Part shown: piece after piece, positions 14,942-28,029 of the stretch | Layout of the letters: each line of letters opens with the position of its first letter | Position numbering within the stretch: position 1 is the stretch's first letter | Origin: Alicyclobacillus sp. SO9 | Lineage (GTDB): Bacteria > Bacillota > Bacilli > Alicyclobacillales > Alicyclobacillaceae | Length of the DNA: 64,000 bases | NCBI RefSeq assembly: GCF_016406125.1 | Contig: NZ_CP066339.1 | Span: forward strand, 62,001 to 126,000 | Direction: 5' to 3' | The notes under the pieces: model-generated | The model's database searches: none | Told to the model about the DNA's origin: nothing | Seen by the model: only the letters and a program-made list of their open reading frames with translations | Position numbers and translations under genes: made by a program

Positions 14942-15801
14942 CAAAACTGTTCGCAATTGATCTCGATGGAACTCTGCTGGGTTCCAATCACGATTTATCT
15001 GAGCAATCACGCCGAGTTATTCGAGAAGTGCTTCTGAGAGGCTATTACGTGACTCTGGTTACGGGGCGAATCAGCCGTTCCGCTCGCTTGTACGCCCGCT
15101 TCCTTGGCATCGATGGTCCGCTTATTTGTTTGAACGGAGCAAACGTTGTAGATGCAGGAAGCGGAGAACTCATGTACGGCCAACCGATGGAGGAGAGGTC
15201 TGTAAAACGCCTTTTGCGTATGGCTGAATCGATGCAGATTCCCTACCTGCTCTATGGTCAGCACTATTTAATTACTAATGTTGAGAACGAAGTGAGTCGT
15301 CGTTGGCGGCTGCGGAGTATGGTGAGACCGGCCGGGTTTTCAGGTTCCTCGACGGGTCAATGGCAACATGTTCCGTTGTTGGTACAATCCGCAGATAATC
15401 TGAGCGAGGCAGTTTATAAGGTGAGTTTGGAGTGCAGTTCTGAATCGATACAACAAGAAGTTCTGGCACAAGTCAAAGGCCTGGAGAACCTGTGCGTCAA
15501 ACTGGCGGACCCGTGGAGAGTTCATTTTACAAATCACGGCGTGCACAAATTACATGCACTTCACTATCTACGAGGACTACTTAATATTTCATTAGATGAC
15601 ATTGTCGCTTTTGGCAATGCAGATAACGACCTGGAAATGCTCACGGGTGTCGGTTACGGCGTTGCTGTGGGAAATGCTACAGAAACGATTCGCAATAGCG
15701 TAGACATACACGCGGCATCAAACGACGAACTTGGTGTGGCGAATAAAATTCTTGAGATTATAGAAAGAGAGAGTGGTAGCAGTGTCTCGTATTCAATCTA
15801 A
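14938..15801 (+). CDS. HAD superfamily phosphatase, Cof subfamily
   Basis: 287 aa. Motif I FAIDLDGTLLG (nucleophile and acid Asp about residues 7 and 9), motif II VTGR, a C2B-type cap, and motif IV FGNADNDLEMLTGVGYGVAVGNA. These proteins dephosphorylate sugar phosphates, flavin or thiamine intermediates. Its C-terminus overlaps the next gene (solute-binding protein) by 20 bp, which links it to the importer operon, though the functional connection is unclear. Confidence 0.9.
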   Translation: MTKLFAIDLDGTLLGSNHDLSEQSRRVIREVLLRGYYVTLVTGRISRSARLYARFLGIDGPLICLNGANVVDAGSGELMYGQPMEERSVKRLLRMAESMQIPYLLYGQHYLITNVENEVSRRWRLRSMVRPAGFSGSSTGQWQHVPLLVQSADNLSEAVYKVSLECSSESIQQEVLAQVKGLENLCVKLADPWRVHFTNHGVHKLHALHYLRGLLNISLDDIVAFGNADNDLEMLTGVGYGVAVGNATETIRNSVDIHAASNDELGVANKILEIIERESGSSVSYSI

Positions 15802-16867
15802 GGTTCATTCTAAGCTTCATTCTAAGCTTCATTCTAAGCTTCCTGCCAAATCTGTTTTGGGACTTGGTGCAGTTCTCGCTGTGTCTACGTCTGCCTTGGC
15901 CGGATGCGGACAGAGCGTATCTGCACAAAGTACGTCGGGCAACGGCAGTTCAGTGTCTGGGACTCTGAACTGGTATACGTCTGAGCCCTTAAAGGATGCA
16001 CAGAAATTTAAAACCGCGTTTGAAAAGAAGTATCCAAAGGTTCATGTCAAGGTTTTTCGTTCAGGCACAGAACAGGTTGTTAGTAAAATTATGACAGAAC
16101 AGAAAGCGGGAAAGGTTCAAGCTGACGTAGTGTTGCTAGCGGACGCTCCTACTTTCCAGATTTTTAAAGACAAAGGGATGCTGCTGTCCTATCATTCTCC
16201 GGAAGACAGTAAGATTCCGAAAGAGTTCATCGACAAAAACTACGATTTCGTCGGGACGAAGGCGATTGTGACCGGAATTATCTACAACACAAACCTGGTC
16301 CACACGCCACCCACGGATTGGAGCAGTCTTTACGCTCCATCAGCAAAAGGTCAAGTCACAATGCCAAGCCCCAACTATTCCGGTGCTGCGGCCTATAACC
16401 TGGGTGTTTTGACGCGTAGTAAAGGAATCGGCTGGAATTTCTACAAACAGCTGCACAAGAACCAGGTTGTGGTCGGGAAAGGCAACGGAGGTGTGGTTAC
16501 AAAAGTCGCCCAAGGACAGATGAAGTACGGGATGGTTATTGGATTTATGGCTGAGAGTGCTAAGCAAAAGGGATCGCCCGTAAACTTCGTGTATCCTAAG
16601 TCCGGCAGCCCAGTCATTACGGAGCCTGTGGGGATCATGAAGGACACGCATAACAAAGCGGCTGCAGAAGCGTTTGAAAACTTCCTGTTGTCTGCACAGG
16701 GCCAGAAGATGGCTGTGCAGATGGATTATGTCCCGCTCAGAAAAGAAATTGCACCGCCGAAAGGTCTTAAATCTATTTCAGATTTTAAAGTGCTTTCTGT
16801 CAGCACAAAAACACTAGCTGACAACCGCAGTCAGGACAAGAAAAAATTCGCATCACTGATGCAATAA
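15782..16867 (+). CDS. ABC transporter substrate-binding lipoprotein (Fe(III)/AEP-type)
   Basis: 361 aa. Signal peptide with lipobox LAGC (about residue 41), Ser/Gly linker, then a type-II periplasmic-binding fold of the FbpA/PhnS class: LNWYTSEPLKDAQKF, EQKAGKVQADVVLLADAP, TGIIYNTN, NYSGAAAYNLG, PVGIMKDTHNKAAAEAFENFLLSAQGQ. Tyr pairs usual for ferric binding are partly present but substrate choice is not certain. The N-region is unusual: three HSKL repeats from a 12-bp tandem duplication before the hydrophobic core. GTG 15782 is preferred over GTG 15773 by spacing from the purine run. It leads the importer operon. Confidence 0.85.
   Translation: MSRIQSKVHSKLHSKLHSKLPAKSVLGLGAVLAVSTSALAGCGQSVSAQSTSGNGSSVSGTLNWYTSEPLKDAQKFKTAFEKKYPKVHVKVFRSGTEQVVSKIMTEQKAGKVQADVVLLADAPTFQIFKDKGMLLSYHSPEDSKIPKEFIDKNYDFVGTKAIVTGIIYNTNLVHTPPTDWSSLYAPSAKGQVTMPSPNYSGAAAYNLGVLTRSKGIGWNFYKQLHKNQVVVGKGNGGVVTKVAQGQMKYGMVIGFMAESAKQKGSPVNFVYPKSGSPVITEPVGIMKDTHNKAAAEAFENFLLSAQGQKMAVQMDYVPLRKEIAPPKGLKSISDFKVLSVSTKTLADNRSQDKKKFASLMQ
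15804..15839 (+). repeat. 12-bp x 3 tandem repeat in the signal-peptide region
   Basis: Three perfect copies of ttcattctaagc encode HSKL-HSKL-HSKL in the basic n-region of the binding-protein signal peptide. Copy change would stay in frame and alter only charge and length of the n-region. Confidence 0.9.
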
Positions 16868-16905
16868 CCGATGCAATAACGAATGGAATAACGAATGCAA
16901 TGGGT
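16858..16905 (+). repeat. 12-bp x 4 degenerate tandem repeat at the end of the binding-protein gene
   Basis: Four related units (gatgcaataacc, gatgcaataacg, aatggaataacg, aatgcaatgggt) cover the stop codon and the spacer before the permease gene. Each of the first three units contains TAA. Confidence 0.75.
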
Positions 16906-20939: not shown

Positions 20940-21446
20940 TGCTTATTACCTCCTCAATTAAGGTCAGCCGTGACAGTGTAAAAGACTGTATTACAGGTTG
21001 TGCAAGGGACCAGCTAAGCCTCTGCACGCCTTGAAACAGGGTAAGGTGAGCGTGCACATGTAAGTAAAGTACGGTGACGGATAGCACACGTTTGTCAAAA
21101 GTGTATCATGGAGGCTGGTATTCATAAATTCGGTGAGGCTCCATTGAGTGAAAAACAAAGGAGCAAAGGAGCAAAGGAGCAAAGGAGCAAAGGAGCAAAG
21201 GAGCAAAGGAGCAAAGGAGCAAAGGAGCAAAGGAGCAAAGGAGCAAAAGGCGGAATGGATAAAATACGCGAGAAGGATGAAATAATTGTAAAGGGATAGG
21301 TTTTGGTGTGCACCCCTTGTGTCAAAGAGTCGTACGCAATTGGGCGAATGAAAGCAGTAGATAAGAACAGTGAATGAGAACAGTGTGCTGCAACTTGTGA
21401 GTAACATTTCGGACGTCGAGATAAACGATTGAGGAGTGAGCCTGGA
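20940..21446. other. 500-bp spacer with a simple-sequence repeat
   Basis: Apart from the 8-bp repeat at 21160-21247, no gene is supported here. An open frame at 21108-21299 simply reads through the repeat and has no ribosome binding site. The right end (21350-21446) carries the leader of the DUF2294 gene. Confidence 0.6.
21160..21247 (+). repeat. 8-bp x 11 perfect tandem repeat (ggagcaaa)
   Basis: Eleven uninterrupted copies of ggagcaaa (88 bp). The strand is purine-only except for the C in each unit. The unit contains a GGAG resembling a ribosome binding site. Being 8 bp, each gain or loss shifts reading frame and helical phase, so this is a candidate hypervariable tract between the nitronate monooxygenase and the DUF2294 gene. 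Confidence 0.95.
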
Positions 21447-21806
21447 ATGAGCGGAGCAAATTTAACCCACGAGTTTAGCAATTTGTTGCGGGAACTGCGA
21501 AAGAAGCATGTTGGAAAGGGTCCTGAGCAAGTTACCACGAGATTTGTTGGACCGTGGGCTGTCTGCGAACTGCGGGGTAATCTCACAATGGTTGAAAAGT
21601 TCATTAGCCGTTCTACTGAAGGTAAGCGCATGATTAAAGATACGAGAACCGCCTTCATTAAGGAACTGTACGAAGACCCGGCATTGTGTGCACAGTTCGA
21701 GAACTTGGTTGGTGCAAAAATGATGACACTGTACGTGGATTTTGATGTGGATGCTGATATTGGCATGACCGTCTACGTCTTCGACAAGGATATTGGCACA
21801 GAGTAG
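21447..21806 (+). CDS. DUF2294-like protein
   Basis: 119 aa small soluble protein. The pattern LRELRKKHVGKGPEQVTTRFVGPWAVCELRGNLTMVEKFI ... VGAKMMTLYVDFDVDADIGMTVYVF is that of the DUF2294 (Na-Ca antiporter-subunit-like) family found widely in Firmicutes. ATG 21447 is chosen over TTG 21429, with GAGGAG 10 nt upstream. Function is unknown. It stands alone between the 8-bp repeat and the large repeat array. Confidence 0.75.
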   Translation: MSGANLTHEFSNLLRELRKKHVGKGPEQVTTRFVGPWAVCELRGNLTMVEKFISRSTEGKRMIKDTRTAFIKELYEDPALCAQFENLVGAKMMTLYVDFDVDADIGMTVYVFDKDIGTE

Positions 21807-21869: not shown

Positions 21870-22284
21870 GCTGGTGTAGGCGTGTTTGTTGGTGACGTCG
21901 GTCGGTTAAGGATCCTTTTGCTCCCTATTCCAACGTGCGTCGAAGAATAGTGATCGATGGGCTCCCTATCACCAGCAGTCGCCTACAATAGGGATCCCGT
22001 TGCGCCTTATTCTCCACGCCCCACCCTGCCTGGACTCAGATTAGGGATCATTCATGACACTAATGTTTTAGGGCAGCTGGATTAGGGATCCTTGCGATCA
22101 CTATCGCAGGTGGCCACCCCAGTTAGGGACGATTGCGATCACTAACTGCTCTGCTGCCACTGCGGGAAGCCTGCGACGGCAGCGGGATCAACGGGATGGA
22201 AGAAAACACATGCGGAAAAACTCCATTTATAAACTTTTATTCCTTTTATAGTAATCTCAATGCCCAGCGGAACAGTTGGGGGCT
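21870..22284 (+). repeat. Large tandem repeat, unit 1 (~415 bp)
   Basis: First unit of a three-unit array. It begins GCTGGTGTAGGCGTGTTTGT and ends in an AT-rich tail plus CCCAGCGGAACAGTTGGGG. Inside are small inverted repeats sharing a TAGGGATC core: 21960-21998 (arms CCTAT / ATAGG, extended), 22040-22064 (ATTAG ... CTAAT), 22083-22103 (TAGGGATC ... GATCACTA) and 22122-22146 (GTTAG ... CTAAC). No open frame with a ribosome binding site covers it. Confidence 0.9.
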
Positions 22285-22679
22285 GCTGGTGTAGGCGTGT
22301 TTGTTGCTGACGCCGGTCGGTTAAGGATCCTTTTGCTCCCTATTCCAACGTGCGCCGAAGAATAGTGATCGATGGGATCCCTATCACCAGCATTGGCCTA
22401 CAATAGGGATCCCGTTGCGCCCTATTCTCCACGCCCCACCCTGCCTGGACTCAGATTAGGGATCATTCATCACACTAATGTCCCGGGCGTGAGGCATTAG
22501 GGAGCTTTGCGATCACTACCGCCGTGGTCCCGCACCATTAGGGATCTTTCCGATCACTAACCGCCGCCCGACCGCAGCGGGATCAACGGGATCAAGCAAA
22601 ATATCAGCGGTAAAGTCTCATTTATTAATTCCAGTTACCATAATATCCAGCTCAATGCCCAGCGGAACACTTGGGGGCT
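22285..22679 (+). repeat. Large tandem repeat, unit 2 (~395 bp)
   Basis: Second unit, same head and tail as unit 1 but with a diverged middle. It holds a perfect 11-bp inverted repeat GGGATCCCTAT / ATAGGGATCCC (22374-22413, 18-nt loop) and further hairpins such as TTAGGGATC-TTTCC-GATCACTAA. Head and tail are more conserved between units than the central hairpins. Confidence 0.9.
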
Positions 22680-22782
22680 GCTGGTGTAGGCGTGTTTGTT
22701 GGTGACGCCGGTCGGTTAAGGATCCTTTTGCTCCCTATTCCAACGTGCGTCGAAGAATAGTGATCGATGGGATCCCTATCAC
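22680..22782 (+). repeat. Large tandem repeat, unit 3, left part (split by IS256-type element)
   Basis: Starts like units 1 and 2 (GCTGGTGTAGGCGTGTTTGT) and runs to CCCTATCAC, where the insertion sequence enters. The rest of the unit resumes after the element at 24288. The last 8 bases, CCTATCAC, form the left copy of the target duplication. Confidence 0.9.
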
Positions 22783-22821
22783 GGTAGTGTCAAGAAGTTT
22801 GTGTAATTTCTTTTCAGTAGG

Positions 22822-22844
22822 GTTATCCATCGAAGATGGATAAC
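22822..22844 (-). terminator. Hairpin downstream of the IS256-type transposase
   Basis: Perfect 10-bp stem GTTATCCATC / GATGGATAAC with a 3-nt loop, 135 bp beyond the transposase stop on its transcript, inside the element. No clear T-run follows on the minus strand, so terminator function is only possible. Confidence 0.4.
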
Positions 22845-22868
22845 ATCATTATTTGGTTTGTTTTGGTA

Positions 22869-22888
22869 GGTGGGGGGTACCCCCCACC
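22869..22888. repeat. 20-bp perfect GC-rich palindrome
   Basis: GGTGGGGGGTACCCCCCACC is its own reverse complement, without a loop. It lies inside the insertion sequence, 90 bp past the transposase stop. It could extrude as a cruciform or block read-through. Confidence 0.85.
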
Positions 22889-22978
22889 GAAAATTAGAAC
22901 TTTATCCCTCTTGGATTGAATATTCAGAACTAATATCCTTGTTGAATTGCTGGACTGTCTCGGAATTATTTTGGATAA

Positions 22979-24175
22979 TTATTCCTTGTCGAGAGTCTCG
23001 GAGACAGCTGGGTAACGCTCTTCATACATTCGCTGTAGCCCGGCTTTTGTTTCCTCATCGCCAAAGCCTCGGATGACCCTGGTACTCCATTTCTCGTTGT
23101 ACGCTGTGACCTCCAGATAGATAATTTTCTCAGCAGCGTCCATATTTGTTAAGCTGTTCATCGGTCTAAAACGTTTGCGAAGTTCTTTGTTCGTCCGCTC
23201 GATGGCATTTGAAGTATAGATTGCGTGACGAATCAGCTTCGGATATTTGTAAAACGTCAGGAGCGTTGAAAGTTGGCCTTCCCAGGACTGAATTTCTTTC
23301 GAATACTTTTTCCCCCACTTATCTTTGACGGTGTCGAACGCAGCTACGGCCAAGTCCTTGTCTGGTGCGGTGTACACCGTTTTGAGATCACTGAGAAATT
23401 CCGTCTTGTCACCGACTCGGATTTTTGGGAAGGTACTTCGCACTTTATGTACGACGCAGTGCTGAACGTCAGCCTTTGAATAGATTTCTCGAAAGGCTTC
23501 TTCGAGACCAGGGAGCCCATCAAATACACCCAGTAACACTTCGTGTACTCCACGGTTGTATAGGTCCTTGAGCACGTCCTTCCAACCGTTGGCACTTTCT
23601 TTGCCGCCCACGTAGAAGCCGAGTATTTGTCGGTATCCGTCTTCGTTGATACCCATCGCCAGGTAGACGACTTCGCTGTCCACCGTAGTACGTTTTAACT
23701 TGATGTAGATGCCATCTAGGTAGATGACCGAATAACGCTTTTCTAACGGACGCTGCTGCCATTCTTCTACATCTTCCAAAACGGTCTTTGTGATATTACT
23801 GATGGTCGTTGGCGAGTACTCTGTGCCAAACATCCCTTCGATAAATTTCGCGACATCCCGGGTACTCATACCGCCTTTATACATGTGAATGACAGCCTCT
23901 TCTAGCCAACCTTCCCGGCGTTGGTATGGCTCAAACAACTGAGTCTGAAAGGCGTCCTTACGGTCTCGGGGAACCTGTAGGTCCTCTATCTCGCCATACC
24001 GCGTTTGTAAGGAGCGACCATAGTAACCATTTCTACTCGGGCGGCGCCCCTCATACTCCACATTCAGGAAATGCTCAATTTCTTCTCGCATGATAAACTC
24101 GAGTTTTTCCTTAACAAAGCCTTTCACGAGATTTTCCATTAGATCTCCAATACTCTGTTCATGTACACTATCCAT
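22979..24175 (-). CDS. IS256 family transposase
   Basis: 398 aa, full length for IS256/Mutator-type transposases. DDE residues lie in YLDGIYIK (first Asp), GVFDGLPGLEEAF (second Asp) and the NAIERTNKELRKR motif (Glu), with the family C-H motif VQHCVVHKVR between them. The N-terminal helical DNA-binding part includes RRPSRNGYYGRSLQTRYG. The frame is intact, so the element may be active. ATG 24175 is preceded by AGAAAGGAAG. Confidence 0.95.
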   Translation of the reverse strand: MDSVHEQSIGDLMENLVKGFVKEKLEFIMREEIEHFLNVEYEGRRPSRNGYYGRSLQTRYGEIEDLQVPRDRKDAFQTQLFEPYQRREGWLEEAVIHMYKGGMSTRDVAKFIEGMFGTEYSPTTISNITKTVLEDVEEWQQRPLEKRYSVIYLDGIYIKLKRTTVDSEVVYLAMGINEDGYRQILGFYVGGKESANGWKDVLKDLYNRGVHEVLLGVFDGLPGLEEAFREIYSKADVQHCVVHKVRSTFPKIRVGDKTEFLSDLKTVYTAPDKDLAVAAFDTVKDKWGKKYSKEIQSWEGQLSTLLTFYKYPKLIRHAIYTSNAIERTNKELRKRFRPMNSLTNMDAAEKIIYLEVTAYNEKWSTRVIRGFGDEETKAGLQRMYEERYPAVSETLDKE

Positions 24176-24287
24176 AGGTAGGGCTTCCTTTCTGGTGATG
24201 TCGCAATCCCGAGGATACCCTACCTTTTTGTTATCTGAGAAGGATCCAAATTCTCCTACACAAACAATTTTACTTCATCCCTATCAC

Positions 24288-24480
24288 AAGCAGTGGCCTA
24301 CAATAGGGATCCCGTTACGCCCTATTCTCCACGCCCCACCCTGCCTCGAGTCAGATTAGGGATCATTCGTGACACTAATGTTTTGGGGCAGCTGGATTAG
24401 GGATCCTTGCGATCCCTATCGCAGGTGGCCACCCCAGTTAGGGATCCTTGAGATCCCTAACCGCTCCGCTAGGGCAGTCC
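24288..24480 (+). repeat. Large tandem repeat, unit 3, right part
   Basis: Continues unit 3 after the insertion sequence. Its hairpins are the most perfect in the array: TAGGGATC-CTTGC-GATCCCTA (24398-24418) and GTTAGGGATC-CTTGA-GATCCCTAAC (24437-24461). The AT-rich tail seen in units 1 and 2 is missing; homology ends near 24480. Confidence 0.88.
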
Positions 24481-24787: not shown

Positions 24788-24850
24788 GGGGTTTTTTGCG
24801 TTGAGGGAGGCGCTCGCTCAAATTTGGATTTTGAAGTGGATTGTAGTTTT

Positions 24851-24915
24851 GAATTCTGAAGTTGAATTCTGAAGTTGAATTCTGAAGTTGAATTCTGAAG
24901 TTGAATTCTGAAGTT
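24851..24915 (+). repeat. 13-bp x 5 perfect tandem repeat (gaattctgaagtt)
   Basis: Five exact copies of gaattctgaagtt, flanked by degenerate copies on both sides (about 24822-24950). It ends about 97 bp before the formate dehydrogenase start. Copy-number change would alter leader length or spacing of regulatory sites. Confidence 0.95.
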
Positions 24916-25011
24916 GGATTTCTCAAGTTTGAATTTTGAAGTTGAATTTGTTCGGAGTGGAGCGCAATCAGTATGCGTTCAATGCGTTTGCGGTAAAGGG
25001 GGAAGTCATGG

Positions 25012-28000
25012 ATGCAAGCGAAGACATCAGATGAGACTGCTTTAACGGCGGCAATGGAGACTGCGACCCTGCAGGTAGACGGTGTGAACTTTCAGGGGCA
25101 GATGGGTCAAACGATTTTGGAAGTGATGCTGCAGGAGGGACTGGAACACCCACACGTCTGCTACCACTCGAGTCTTGGACCGATAGAGACTTGTGACACT
25201 TGTATGGTCGTGGCAGACGGAAAACTGGTTCGGGCCTGTTCAACTGCCATTCAACCGGGGATGCACATTGAGACTCAGGATGCATTGTCTGCAGCGGCTC
25301 GCGAGGAAGCCATGGATAGAATACTGGAGAATCACATGCTGTATTGTACGGTCTGTGATAACAACAATGGCAACTGTACACTGCATAACACCGTGAAACA
25401 GATGGCGGTGGAAGAGCAGAGGTATCCTTTTCGTGACAAGGGGTACGAGCAAGATCACAGCAATCCATTTTACCGTTATGACCCCAACCAGTGCATCACA
25501 TGCGGCAGGTGTGTCGAAGCGTGCCAGGACTTGCAGGTGAATGAGACGCTGTCTATTGCGTGGGAAAACGAGATCCCGAGGGTGATATGGGACAACGGTG
25601 TTCCTGTAGATGAGTCATCTTGTGTCTCCTGCGGTCACTGTGTGACGGTCTGCCCAACCAACGCGTTGATGGAAAAATCCATGTTGGGGGAAGCCGGCAC
25701 GATGACTGGATTGGATGAAAAGCTGCTCAATCCGATGATTGATTTGGTCAAAAATGTGGAGCCCAGCTATGGCGGGATTTTGGCTGTATCCGAGGCCGAA
25801 GCAGCGATTCGGGAGACGCAGATTGAAAAGACGAAAACCGTTTGTACCTTCTGCGGAGTTGGATGCTCCTTTGATGTGTGGACGAAGGACCGTAAGATTC
25901 TCAAGGTTGAGCCCAGTGTCGATGCGCCGGCCAACGGTATCTCGACGTGTGTTAAAGGGAAGTTCGGCTGGGATTTTGTCAACAGTGAGGAACGTCTGAC
26001 TAAGCCTTTAATTCGCCGCGGGGACACGTTCTACGAAGCAAGCTGGGACGAAGCGCTGGACCTGGTTGCCAGCAAGTTGCAGGAGACGAAAGAAACCTAT
26101 GGGCCGGATGCACTCGGTTTTATTTCGTCGTCCAAAATTACCAACGAAGAAAACTACTTGATGCAAAAGCTCTCCCGCGGGGTAATGGGAACCAATAATG
26201 TGGACAACTGTTCTCGCTACTGTCAATCCCCTGCAACCGACGGGTTAATGAGAACGGTGGGCTACGGCGGTGATTCGGGTACCATCGAAGACATTTCAAA
26301 AGCGGGGTTGGTTTTGATTGTCGGGGCAAATCCTGCAGAAGCTCACCCTGTCTTGGCAACTCGTGTAAAACGCGCGCACAAACTGCATGGGCAGAAGCTG
26401 ATGGTCGTTGATTTGCGAAAGCATGAGATGGCGGAACGGGCCGATTTGTTTGTTCGTCCGAAGCAAGGAACAGACCATGTCTGGCTGTCTGCGATTACGA
26501 AATACATTATCGATGCGGGCTGGCATGCGGAGTCGTTCGTGCGAGAAAAGGTAAACGGCTTCGACAGTCTCGTAGAGTCTCTTGCTCCCTTTACGCTTGA
26601 CTACGCGGAACAAGTCAGTGGAATTCAATCTGAAACGTTGGTTGAGATGGCGAAAATGGTTGCCGATGCGGACGGTGTGGCGGCTCTGTGGGCTATGGGC
26701 GTGACCCAACACAGCGGGGGCAGTGATACAAGCGGGGCCATCAGCAACCTGCTGTTGGTAACGGGAAACTTTGGTAAGCCGGGCTGCGGCGCGTTTCCGC
26801 TGAGAGGGCATAACAATGTTCAGGGAGCCTGCGACTTCGGGACGCTTCCGCCATGGTTGCCCGGATATCAAAAGGTGACGGATGAAGGCGTTCGTGCCAA
26901 GTTTGAAAAGGCGTGGGGAACTGAGTTGTCGGACAAGCCTGGAATGGATAACCAGCAGATGGTGGCGGCAATTCATTTCAATCAGCTCAAGGCCATGTAT
27001 CTGGTCGGCGAAGAGATGGCGTGGGTCGATACGAATTCCAACCATGTGCAGGACGCTTTAAGTAAATTGGACTTTCTGGTTGTACAGGACATTTTCTTTA
27101 CGAAGACGGCCCAATTTGCGGACGTGATTTTACCTGCCAGCCCAAGTCTCGAGAAAGAGGGAACATTTACTAATACAGAGCGTCGTATTCAGCGCTTGTA
27201 TCAGGTATTGCCGCCTCTTGGAGATTCTCGTCCAGATTGGGAAATCATCATGGACATTGCAAATCGGCTTGGTGCCAAATGGGAGTATCAGCGTCCCGCT
27301 GACATCATGGCAGAGGCTGCTTCCGTGACACCTTTGTTTGCTGGTGTCTCCTACGACTTGTTGGAAGGTTACAGCAGTCTTGTCTGGCCGGTTGCACCGG
27401 ACGGTAAAGATACACCGCTATTGTACACAGACGGTTTTGCTTTCTCGGATAAAAAGGCCAATTTGGTGATGCCAAACTGGGTACCGCCTCGAAAAGCAGA
27501 GGAAGGGTATGATTTAGTGCTCAACAACGGCCGACTGTTGGAGCACTTCCACGAAGGAAATCTAACCAATAAGTCCGCAGGATTGCAGCACAAGGTTCCC
27601 AATACGTTTGTGGAAGTGTCTCCGGAATTGGCCAAGGAGCGCGGATTGAAGGATGGCTCCGTTGTTCGCCTGGAATCACCTGACGGCGCCGTAAAAGTAA
27701 GCGTCGTTGTCACAGACAGAGTCCATAAGAATGAACTCTATCTGCCCATGAATTCAACAGACAACGAGTCTGCGGTCAATCTGCTCACTGGCAACGATAC
27801 AGACGTTCGAACCCATACTCCTGCATACAAGGAGACGTATGTCCGTATGCAGGTTCTCAACAAAGATGGAATGAGGCCTTTGCCAAGGACCAATTCCCGG
27901 TACGGCCAGCGAAATCCACAACAAGGCGTAGAGGTTCATCGAAAATGGCAGAGACCGGGGTATGAGTCCGTTCAAGCAACTGTAGAAAGGAGAATGAAAA

Positions 28001-28029
28001 ATGGCCAGTCCGTCCACCTCCATTCATAG
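25012..28029 (+). CDS. fdhA: Formate dehydrogenase alpha subunit, NuoG-like N-terminus (YrhE/YjgC type)
   Basis: 1005 aa molybdo-bis-MGD enzyme. N-terminal [2Fe-2S] domain (CYHSSLGPIETCDTC ... C), a His/Cys [4Fe-4S] NuoG-like site (HMLYCTVCDNNNGNC), two 4Fe-4S ferredoxin motifs (CITCGRCVEAC and CVSCGHCVTVCPTNAL), the enzyme's own cluster (CTFCGVGCSFDVW) and the catalytic Mo domain with a C-terminal dinucleotide-binding domain. In DNCSRYCQSPATDG the Cys sits where selenocysteine occurs in E. coli FdhF, and the usual next His is Gln, so formate as substrate needs care. ATG 25012 has AAAGGGGGA 8 nt upstream; an overlapping 8-codon mini-ORF starts at 25008. It is coupled to a DUF1641 protein, as in B. 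subtilis yrhE-yrhD. Confidence 0.93.
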   Translation: MQAKTSDETALTAAMETATLQVDGVNFQGQMGQTILEVMLQEGLEHPHVCYHSSLGPIETCDTCMVVADGKLVRACSTAIQPGMHIETQDALSAAAREEAMDRILENHMLYCTVCDNNNGNCTLHNTVKQMAVEEQRYPFRDKGYEQDHSNPFYRYDPNQCITCGRCVEACQDLQVNETLSIAWENEIPRVIWDNGVPVDESSCVSCGHCVTVCPTNALMEKSMLGEAGTMTGLDEKLLNPMIDLVKNVEPSYGGILAVSEAEAAIRETQIEKTKTVCTFCGVGCSFDVWTKDRKILKVEPSVDAPANGISTCVKGKFGWDFVNSEERLTKPLIRRGDTFYEASWDEALDLVASKLQETKETYGPDALGFISSSKITNEENYLMQKLSRGVMGTNNVDNCSRYCQSPATDGLMRTVGYGGDSGTIEDISKAGLVLIVGANPAEAHPVLATRVKRAHKLHGQKLMVVDLRKHEMAERADLFVRPKQGTDHVWLSAITKYIIDAGWHAESFVREKVNGFDSLVESLAPFTLDYAEQVSGIQSETLVEMAKMVADADGVAALWAMGVTQHSGGSDTSGAISNLLLVTGNFGKPGCGAFPLRGHNNVQGACDFGTLPPWLPGYQKVTDEGVRAKFEKAWGTELSDKPGMDNQQMVAAIHFNQLKAMYLVGEEMAWVDTNSNHVQDALSKLDFLVVQDIFFTKTAQFADVILPASPSLEKEGTFTNTERRIQRLYQVLPPLGDSRPDWEIIMDIANRLGAKWEYQRPADIMAEAASVTPLFAGVSYDLLEGYSSLVWPVAPDGKDTPLLYTDGFAFSDKKANLVMPNWVPPRKAEEGYDLVLNNGRLLEHFHEGNLTNKSAGLQHKVPNTFVEVSPELAKERGLKDGSVVRLESPDGAVKVSVVVTDRVHKNELYLPMNSTDNESAVNLLTGNDTDVRTHTPAYKETYVRMQVLNKDGMRPLPRTNSRYGQRNPQQGVEVHRKWQRPGYESVQATVERRMKNGQSVHLHS

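Follow-up and report, generated by a model that had tools for sequence, protein, structure and literature searches.

RAYT transposases are the usual explanation for high-copy palindromic repeats in bacteria, and whether such repeats are RNA or DNA elements is debated. Other palindromes that recur across chromosomes, the sites of ParB (parS), Noc and SlmA, show an origin-proximal bias, and in Bacillota the bcr repeats of the Bacillus cereus group are dispersed, palindrome-bearing and intergenic. The repeats described here are likewise dispersed, palindrome-bearing and intergenic in a member of the Bacillota; to our knowledge, bcr repeats have no six-site phased architecture, a contrast that we draw from their description rather than from a comparison of sequences. 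REPs and BIMEs occur in tandem clusters, which lie for the most part between convergent or co-directional genes and seldom in divergent gaps (PMC1525189, PMC2817692, PMC3733652), and a GTAG/CGTC survey lists no REP family in Bacillota (PMC3733652). IS110 and IS256 are among the insertion sequence (IS) families reported to target REPs (PMC1525189; PMC11208160), and IS621 inserts in E. coli REPs at a single point with a short core (PMC11208160). Here we describe dispersed, non-coding, REP/BIME-like repeats in Alicyclobacillus sp. SO9 which, on balance, we favour reading as RAYT-independent DNA repeats that form helically phased arrays for a putative dimeric binder with an architectural or topological role.

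The window, that is the whole stretch of 64,000 bp that was analysed, is C1:62001-126000 of a genome whose chromosome has 5,196,104 bp and whose second contig, a plasmid, has 90,030 bp. As an earlier sequence-only reading had reported, three repeat units are present, at 21871-22284, 22286-22679 and from 22681 onward, all on the plus strand. Profile matches and alignment rows place the core of unit 1 at 21903-22152, the remainder being head and inter-unit spacer, and that of unit 2 at 22318-22567. Unit 3 is cut by an IS into a left part at 22681-22783, which matches positions 2-104 of the profile model and carries palindromes 1 and 2, and a right part at 24277-24474 (model positions 93-290), which carries palindromes 3-6. 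The array is flanked by genes for an MpsC-domain protein (21429-21806, plus strand) and a large molybdopterin (formate-dehydrogenase-like) oxidoreductase (25012-28029, plus strand), neither of which hints at a tie to the repeats.

The IS in unit 3 belongs to the IS256/Mutator family, is about 1.5 kb long and occupies about 22784-24279 on the minus strand, boundaries that were set by comparison with two other genomic copies; its transposase ORF (398 aa, 22979-24175, minus strand) matches PF00872 Transposase_mut with E=2.9e-103. The target duplication is 8-9 bp, CCTATCAC plus one further base, and the slight overlap between the IS span and unit 3, which resumes at 24277 and ends at about 24474, is this duplicated target. 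The earlier remark that the repeats are free of protein frames holds for the units, a fully open reading frame running through the core in one of 103, and fails for the reported span, much of which is covered by the transposase ORF. The units themselves are, as had been said, not CRISPR, attC or IS, even though an IS lies inside that span. We rejected a protein-coding repeat, as frames are closed in the unit cores, and also a CRISPR array, the unit being about 400 bp long, the spacers homologous and the examined neighbour genes not cas.

Each unit core of about 250 bp contains six modules, which differ from each other and keep their order; every one is an imperfect palindrome of 21 bp with the form TARKGATC-N5-GATCMYTA. 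A site scan placed the palindromes of unit 1 at 21907-22144 (starts 21907, 21948, 21989, 22042, 22083 and 22124; spacings 41, 41, 53, 41 and 41 bp) and those of unit 2 at 22322-22559 (starts 22322, 22363, 22404, 22457, 22498 and 22539; spacings again 41, 41, 53, 41 and 41 bp), while unit 3 has palindromes 1 and 2 at 22717-22778 (starts 22717 and 22758) and palindromes 3-6 at 24304-24459 (starts 24304, 24357, 24398 and 24439; spacings 53, 41 and 41 bp). Start-to-start spacings of sites are 41/42, 41/42, 53, 41/42 and 41/42 bp, with deviations of at most one base, and 438 intervals take only the values 41/42 and 52/53 bp, plus 93-95 bp where a short and a long gap together span a skipped site. 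With 42 bp equal to 4.0 helical turns and 53 bp to about 5.05, the six palindromes lie on one face of the helix at spacings of about 4, 4, 5, 4 and 4 turns. Because the spacings in this genome represent one inherited pattern, only a few lineages lend whole-turn spacing independent support. At no more than one mismatch the palindrome pattern has 367 matches in the genome, far above chance, against 0 for a reversed control; all 367 were recovered inside arrays, and none was found outside them in the 0.98 Mb examined. Since every site lies within an array, the palindromes differ from ordinary transcription-factor operators, a candidate that we rejected on this ground and on the avoidance of divergent (promoter) gaps.

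The half-sites are under stronger constraint than the DNA between them. When one pair of units was taken from each of 31 arrays, key half-site positions differed in 1.6% of cases, degenerate arm positions in 6.0%, all arm positions in 3.3% and linkers in 11.0%. Even between adjacent copies in one array the key half-site positions thus differ 7-fold less than linkers, although these positions were picked partly for their conservation and the fairer contrast is that of all arm positions with linkers. Linker lengths are constant to a base or two. The conservation of half-sites between adjacent copies suggests a constraint at the level of DNA. The sequence-only reading had described conserved heads and tails around a varying hairpin block; we found instead that half-site letters and their spacings are the most conserved parts and linkers the variable ones. 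Its proposal of a replicon relic sits poorly with units dispersed genome-wide whose half-site positions are conserved even between adjacent copies.

Spacers between units are 97-425 bp long, and their lengths, counted per array, cluster at a period of about 10.3-10.5 bp (R 0.49-0.59). Counted per cluster at 85% identity or more, the phasing gives p of about 0.0035 or less at 10.5 bp, and it weakens to p of about 0.04-0.11 on further collapse of related spacers; helical phasing of the inter-unit spacers is therefore no more than suggestive. A second conserved block (18 profile hits) lies in the spacers and again on the 5' side of many arrays. In the window, spacer alignment and profile locate it between cores 1 and 2 (22153-22317), around GCGGGATCAACGGGAT; in this interval and in the spacers of most arrays it reads GCGGGATCAACGGGATCGAAC...AAGCGGAAAA...TTTATTAACT.

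Iterated profile searches of loci, together with a whole-genome scan by a sequence-only model built from 42 non-redundant cores, recovered 104 near-complete units, grouped in 63 arrays and confined to the chromosome, of which they make up 28 kb (0.5%); the same whole-genome model search showed no unit on the 90-kb plasmid. A local non-functional duplication is not supported, given units dispersed across the genome and half-sites conserved between adjacent copies; related genera have matches as well (see below). Mean identity is 93% between units of one array and 73% between arrays, and all units of an array always share one orientation, so arrays grow locally; one large array, at C1 39.9-41.9 kb, has five units. 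Among single units or arrays at distant loci, similarity begins at the core edge, with a 3' edge that is sharp in some pairs only, and because similarity between loci is bounded by the core we conclude that units also disperse. No recent burst is visible, since even the most similar copies from loci far apart reach about 92-94% identity. More diverged units, scoring about 70-115 bits, form a second subfamily found mostly in the neighbourhood of the origin; those at C1:280039, 285376, 448818, 5079505, 5112218, 5154118 and 5165282 score about 75-115 bits. We rejected a phage or plasmid origin: records of phages and plasmids gave no match, and the six hits of the pattern among viral contigs failed to fit the unit model.

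Palindromes and units fall almost entirely in intergenic gaps, as delimited with a simple hexamer-based gene caller. Of 62 arrays, 26 lie in convergent gaps and three in divergent ones, whereas among 262 further gaps no shorter than 150 bp, 42 are convergent and 75 divergent (p=2e-5 for each contrast); array orientation relative to tandem genes is unbiased (18 vs 15). With dnaA at position 1 and the GC skew switch near 2.6 Mb, 20 of 63 arrays fall in the first tenth of the origin-to-terminus distance (KS p=4e-6, on raw array positions irrespective of gap density along the chromosome). This origin bias is not general, since arrays of Alicyclobacillus sp. ALC3 lie away from the chromosome ends, where its origin is expected. 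Short intergenic tandem repeats are abundant in the genome, with units of 8-17 bp common (e.g. CAAAGGAG x11.5 and TTGAATTCTGAAG x7.5), and were found in 42 of the 62 gaps that hold arrays, against 44 of 114 long gaps elsewhere; examples in the window are at 15792-15842, 16859-16901, 21156-21247 and 24849-24948.

A chromosome-organising role, one of the possibilities raised at the outset, is compatible with the phased palindromes, the origin-proximal bias and the preference for convergent gene ends, the binder being putative. A dimeric DNA-binding protein might dock cooperatively on the six phased palindromes of a unit and act topologically or architecturally, for example by absorbing supercoils or bridging DNA, rather than through promoter control; it would act where transcription units converge and in the part of the chromosome near the origin. 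New loci would arise when a unit is copied, by a mechanism we can only postulate, into another intergenic gap, and arrays at gene 3' ends would then expand in place through tandem duplication; there they may offer safe landing sites for IS elements, notably one of the IS110 family. Like the sites of ParB, Noc and SlmA, those described here are palindromic and chromosome-wide with an origin-proximal bias, but the former are single short palindromes conserved across genera, whereas ours are lineage-specific sites confined to phased arrays, with a binder that is putative.

Matches were found in four of 59 genomes of the order, namely the source genome, ALC3 (NZ_CP066784.1) and two others, G007 and G006. 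ALC3 has six arrays, none of them in a divergent gap, built as plain 42-bp repeats of a palindrome CTAAGTGATC-GAAAG-GATCACATAG; G007 has palindromes 53 bp apart in two convergent gaps, and G006 has one 41-bp array. Across these relatives the half-site letters drift while whole-turn spacing is kept, and because the half-site is not identical in all of them, homology of the G006 and G007 arrays is less sure than that of the ALC3 arrays. A wider taxonomic search with a three-part palindrome pattern found nothing. With a two-palindrome pattern over 85k genomes, the matches listed were mainly chance or coding repeats plus one true relative, ALC3. Loci in other phyla with 39- or 42-bp spacing (L170, L150, L181) read as His/Asp-codon-rich coding repeats rather than relatives of the arrays. 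With five candidates scored per genome in 399 Bacilli, the unit model retrieved the source genome only and also missed the array-bearing G007, so that absence of the family from other Bacilli is weakly tested.

The arrays are also IS targets. An IS110-family element of 1.68 kb (PF01548/PF02371), with subterminal TGAACGAAG inverted repeats (IS1111-like), is present in three nearly identical copies (100% as rounded; L074, L075 and L076 at C1:4234138, 501830 and 4968773), and every copy interrupts palindrome 2 of a unit and is flanked on either side by a CT core; both orientations occur. As units make up 0.5% of the chromosome, this is not attributable to chance. It recalls IS621, the element here likewise using a single insertion point within a palindromic repeat, although this repeat differs from the E. 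coli REP. A search of the non-coding region of the element for a guide gave only 7-base matches to both target halves (GTGATAG and AGTGATC), which is near chance. As to the IS256-family element, one of its three genomic copies is in an array, and the examined flanks of the other two, one with a clear 9-bp duplication, hold no array sequence.

How closely, then, do these repeats resemble REPs and BIMEs? Both are high-copy extragenic palindromes clustered in tandem, both are rare in divergent gaps and enriched at gene 3' ends, and both are targets of IS110- and IS256-family elements. In contrast to REPs, however, the source genome contains no RAYT (Y1 transposase, PF01797), of which there is also no match in G006 and one each in ALC3 and G007; by inspection, no GTAG/CGTC tag flanks the six palindromes in the consensus; the stems show no compensatory changes; and the unit is a fixed one of six palindromes with whole-turn spacing in a Bacillota host. 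Membership of the RAYT-associated REPs was therefore rejected, and because the tests for RAYT, tag and compensatory changes all failed, we do not file these repeats among the REP families.

The main rival explanation is a selfish repeat that retains its half-sites because they serve its mobilization. As a non-autonomous mobile element (MITE-like or REP-like), its palindromes would bind a trans-acting transposase or recombinase with no gain to the host, and copies at convergent ends would be those that do least harm. The core-bounded dispersal of units, a location pattern that is that of REPs (PMC3733652), the lineage-specific presence in four of 59 genomes and the targeting of arrays by IS elements all agree with it, and the half-site constraint itself could serve a mobilizing enzyme rather than the host. 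We nevertheless consider it possible but doubtful, since no target-site duplications of single units were seen at array edges (by inspection, with no empty sites for comparison), the genome has no RAYT/Y1 transposase, the identity of distant copies, at most about 92-94%, gives no sign of a recent burst, and constraint on half-sites between resident copies is not expected of decaying selfish ones. We infer that the repeats serve the host rather than spreading selfishly.

Much less probable is a structured RNA array, the first suggestion made for this locus, in which each unit would be transcribed and fold into serial hairpins. A single unit alone does fold with z -4.2, as inverted repeats must, and the hairpins with short loops that gave the sequence-only reading its impression, as well as a position after gene 3' ends that would permit read-through transcription, are in keeping with it. 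Yet when six hairpins were imposed on the unit alignment, 79.4% of cells paired compared with 79.6% after shuffling, while double-sided pair changes, further pair types and the covariation score were all under the shuffled means. At several arm positions most copies have a mismatch, the RNAalifold consensus fold is only -1.7 kcal/mol, Rfam has no match for the units, and promoter- and terminator-like sites near the array are at chance level. Compensatory changes in the hairpin arms, whose absence had been named beforehand as part of a refuting test, were not found, and with Rfam, RNAalifold and pair counting all negative we rejected an RNA family. The least probable explanation of all, that these are ordinary minisatellites with incidental palindromes in a lineage whose tendency to short tandem duplication can multiply any sequence, can draw on the abundance of short intergenic tandem repeats, more frequent beside arrays, and on the plain 42-bp repeats of ALC3, but is at odds with similar half-sites and 41/42/53-bp spacings across three genera and across dispersed loci averaging 73% identity, with arms that evolve more slowly than linkers, and with six modules per unit that differ while keeping their order.

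Returning to phased arrays for a putative dimeric binder, a more specific proposal, which we offer tentatively, is that they constitute a lineage-specific chromosome-architecture system of the Alicyclobacillaceae, in which a putative, undescribed dimeric protein would bridge or constrain DNA at arrays located at gene ends and, in this species, near the origin. Such a system would be an analogue of BIMEs that evolved without RAYTs and is exploited as a target by an IS110-family element. The repeats form a large palindromic family on one face of the helix, with half-site constraint at the DNA level and with neither a RAYT nor RNA covariation. The arrays make chromosome organization by such repeats directly testable, and they add a natural IS110-family target that may be of use in understanding bridge-RNA target choice.
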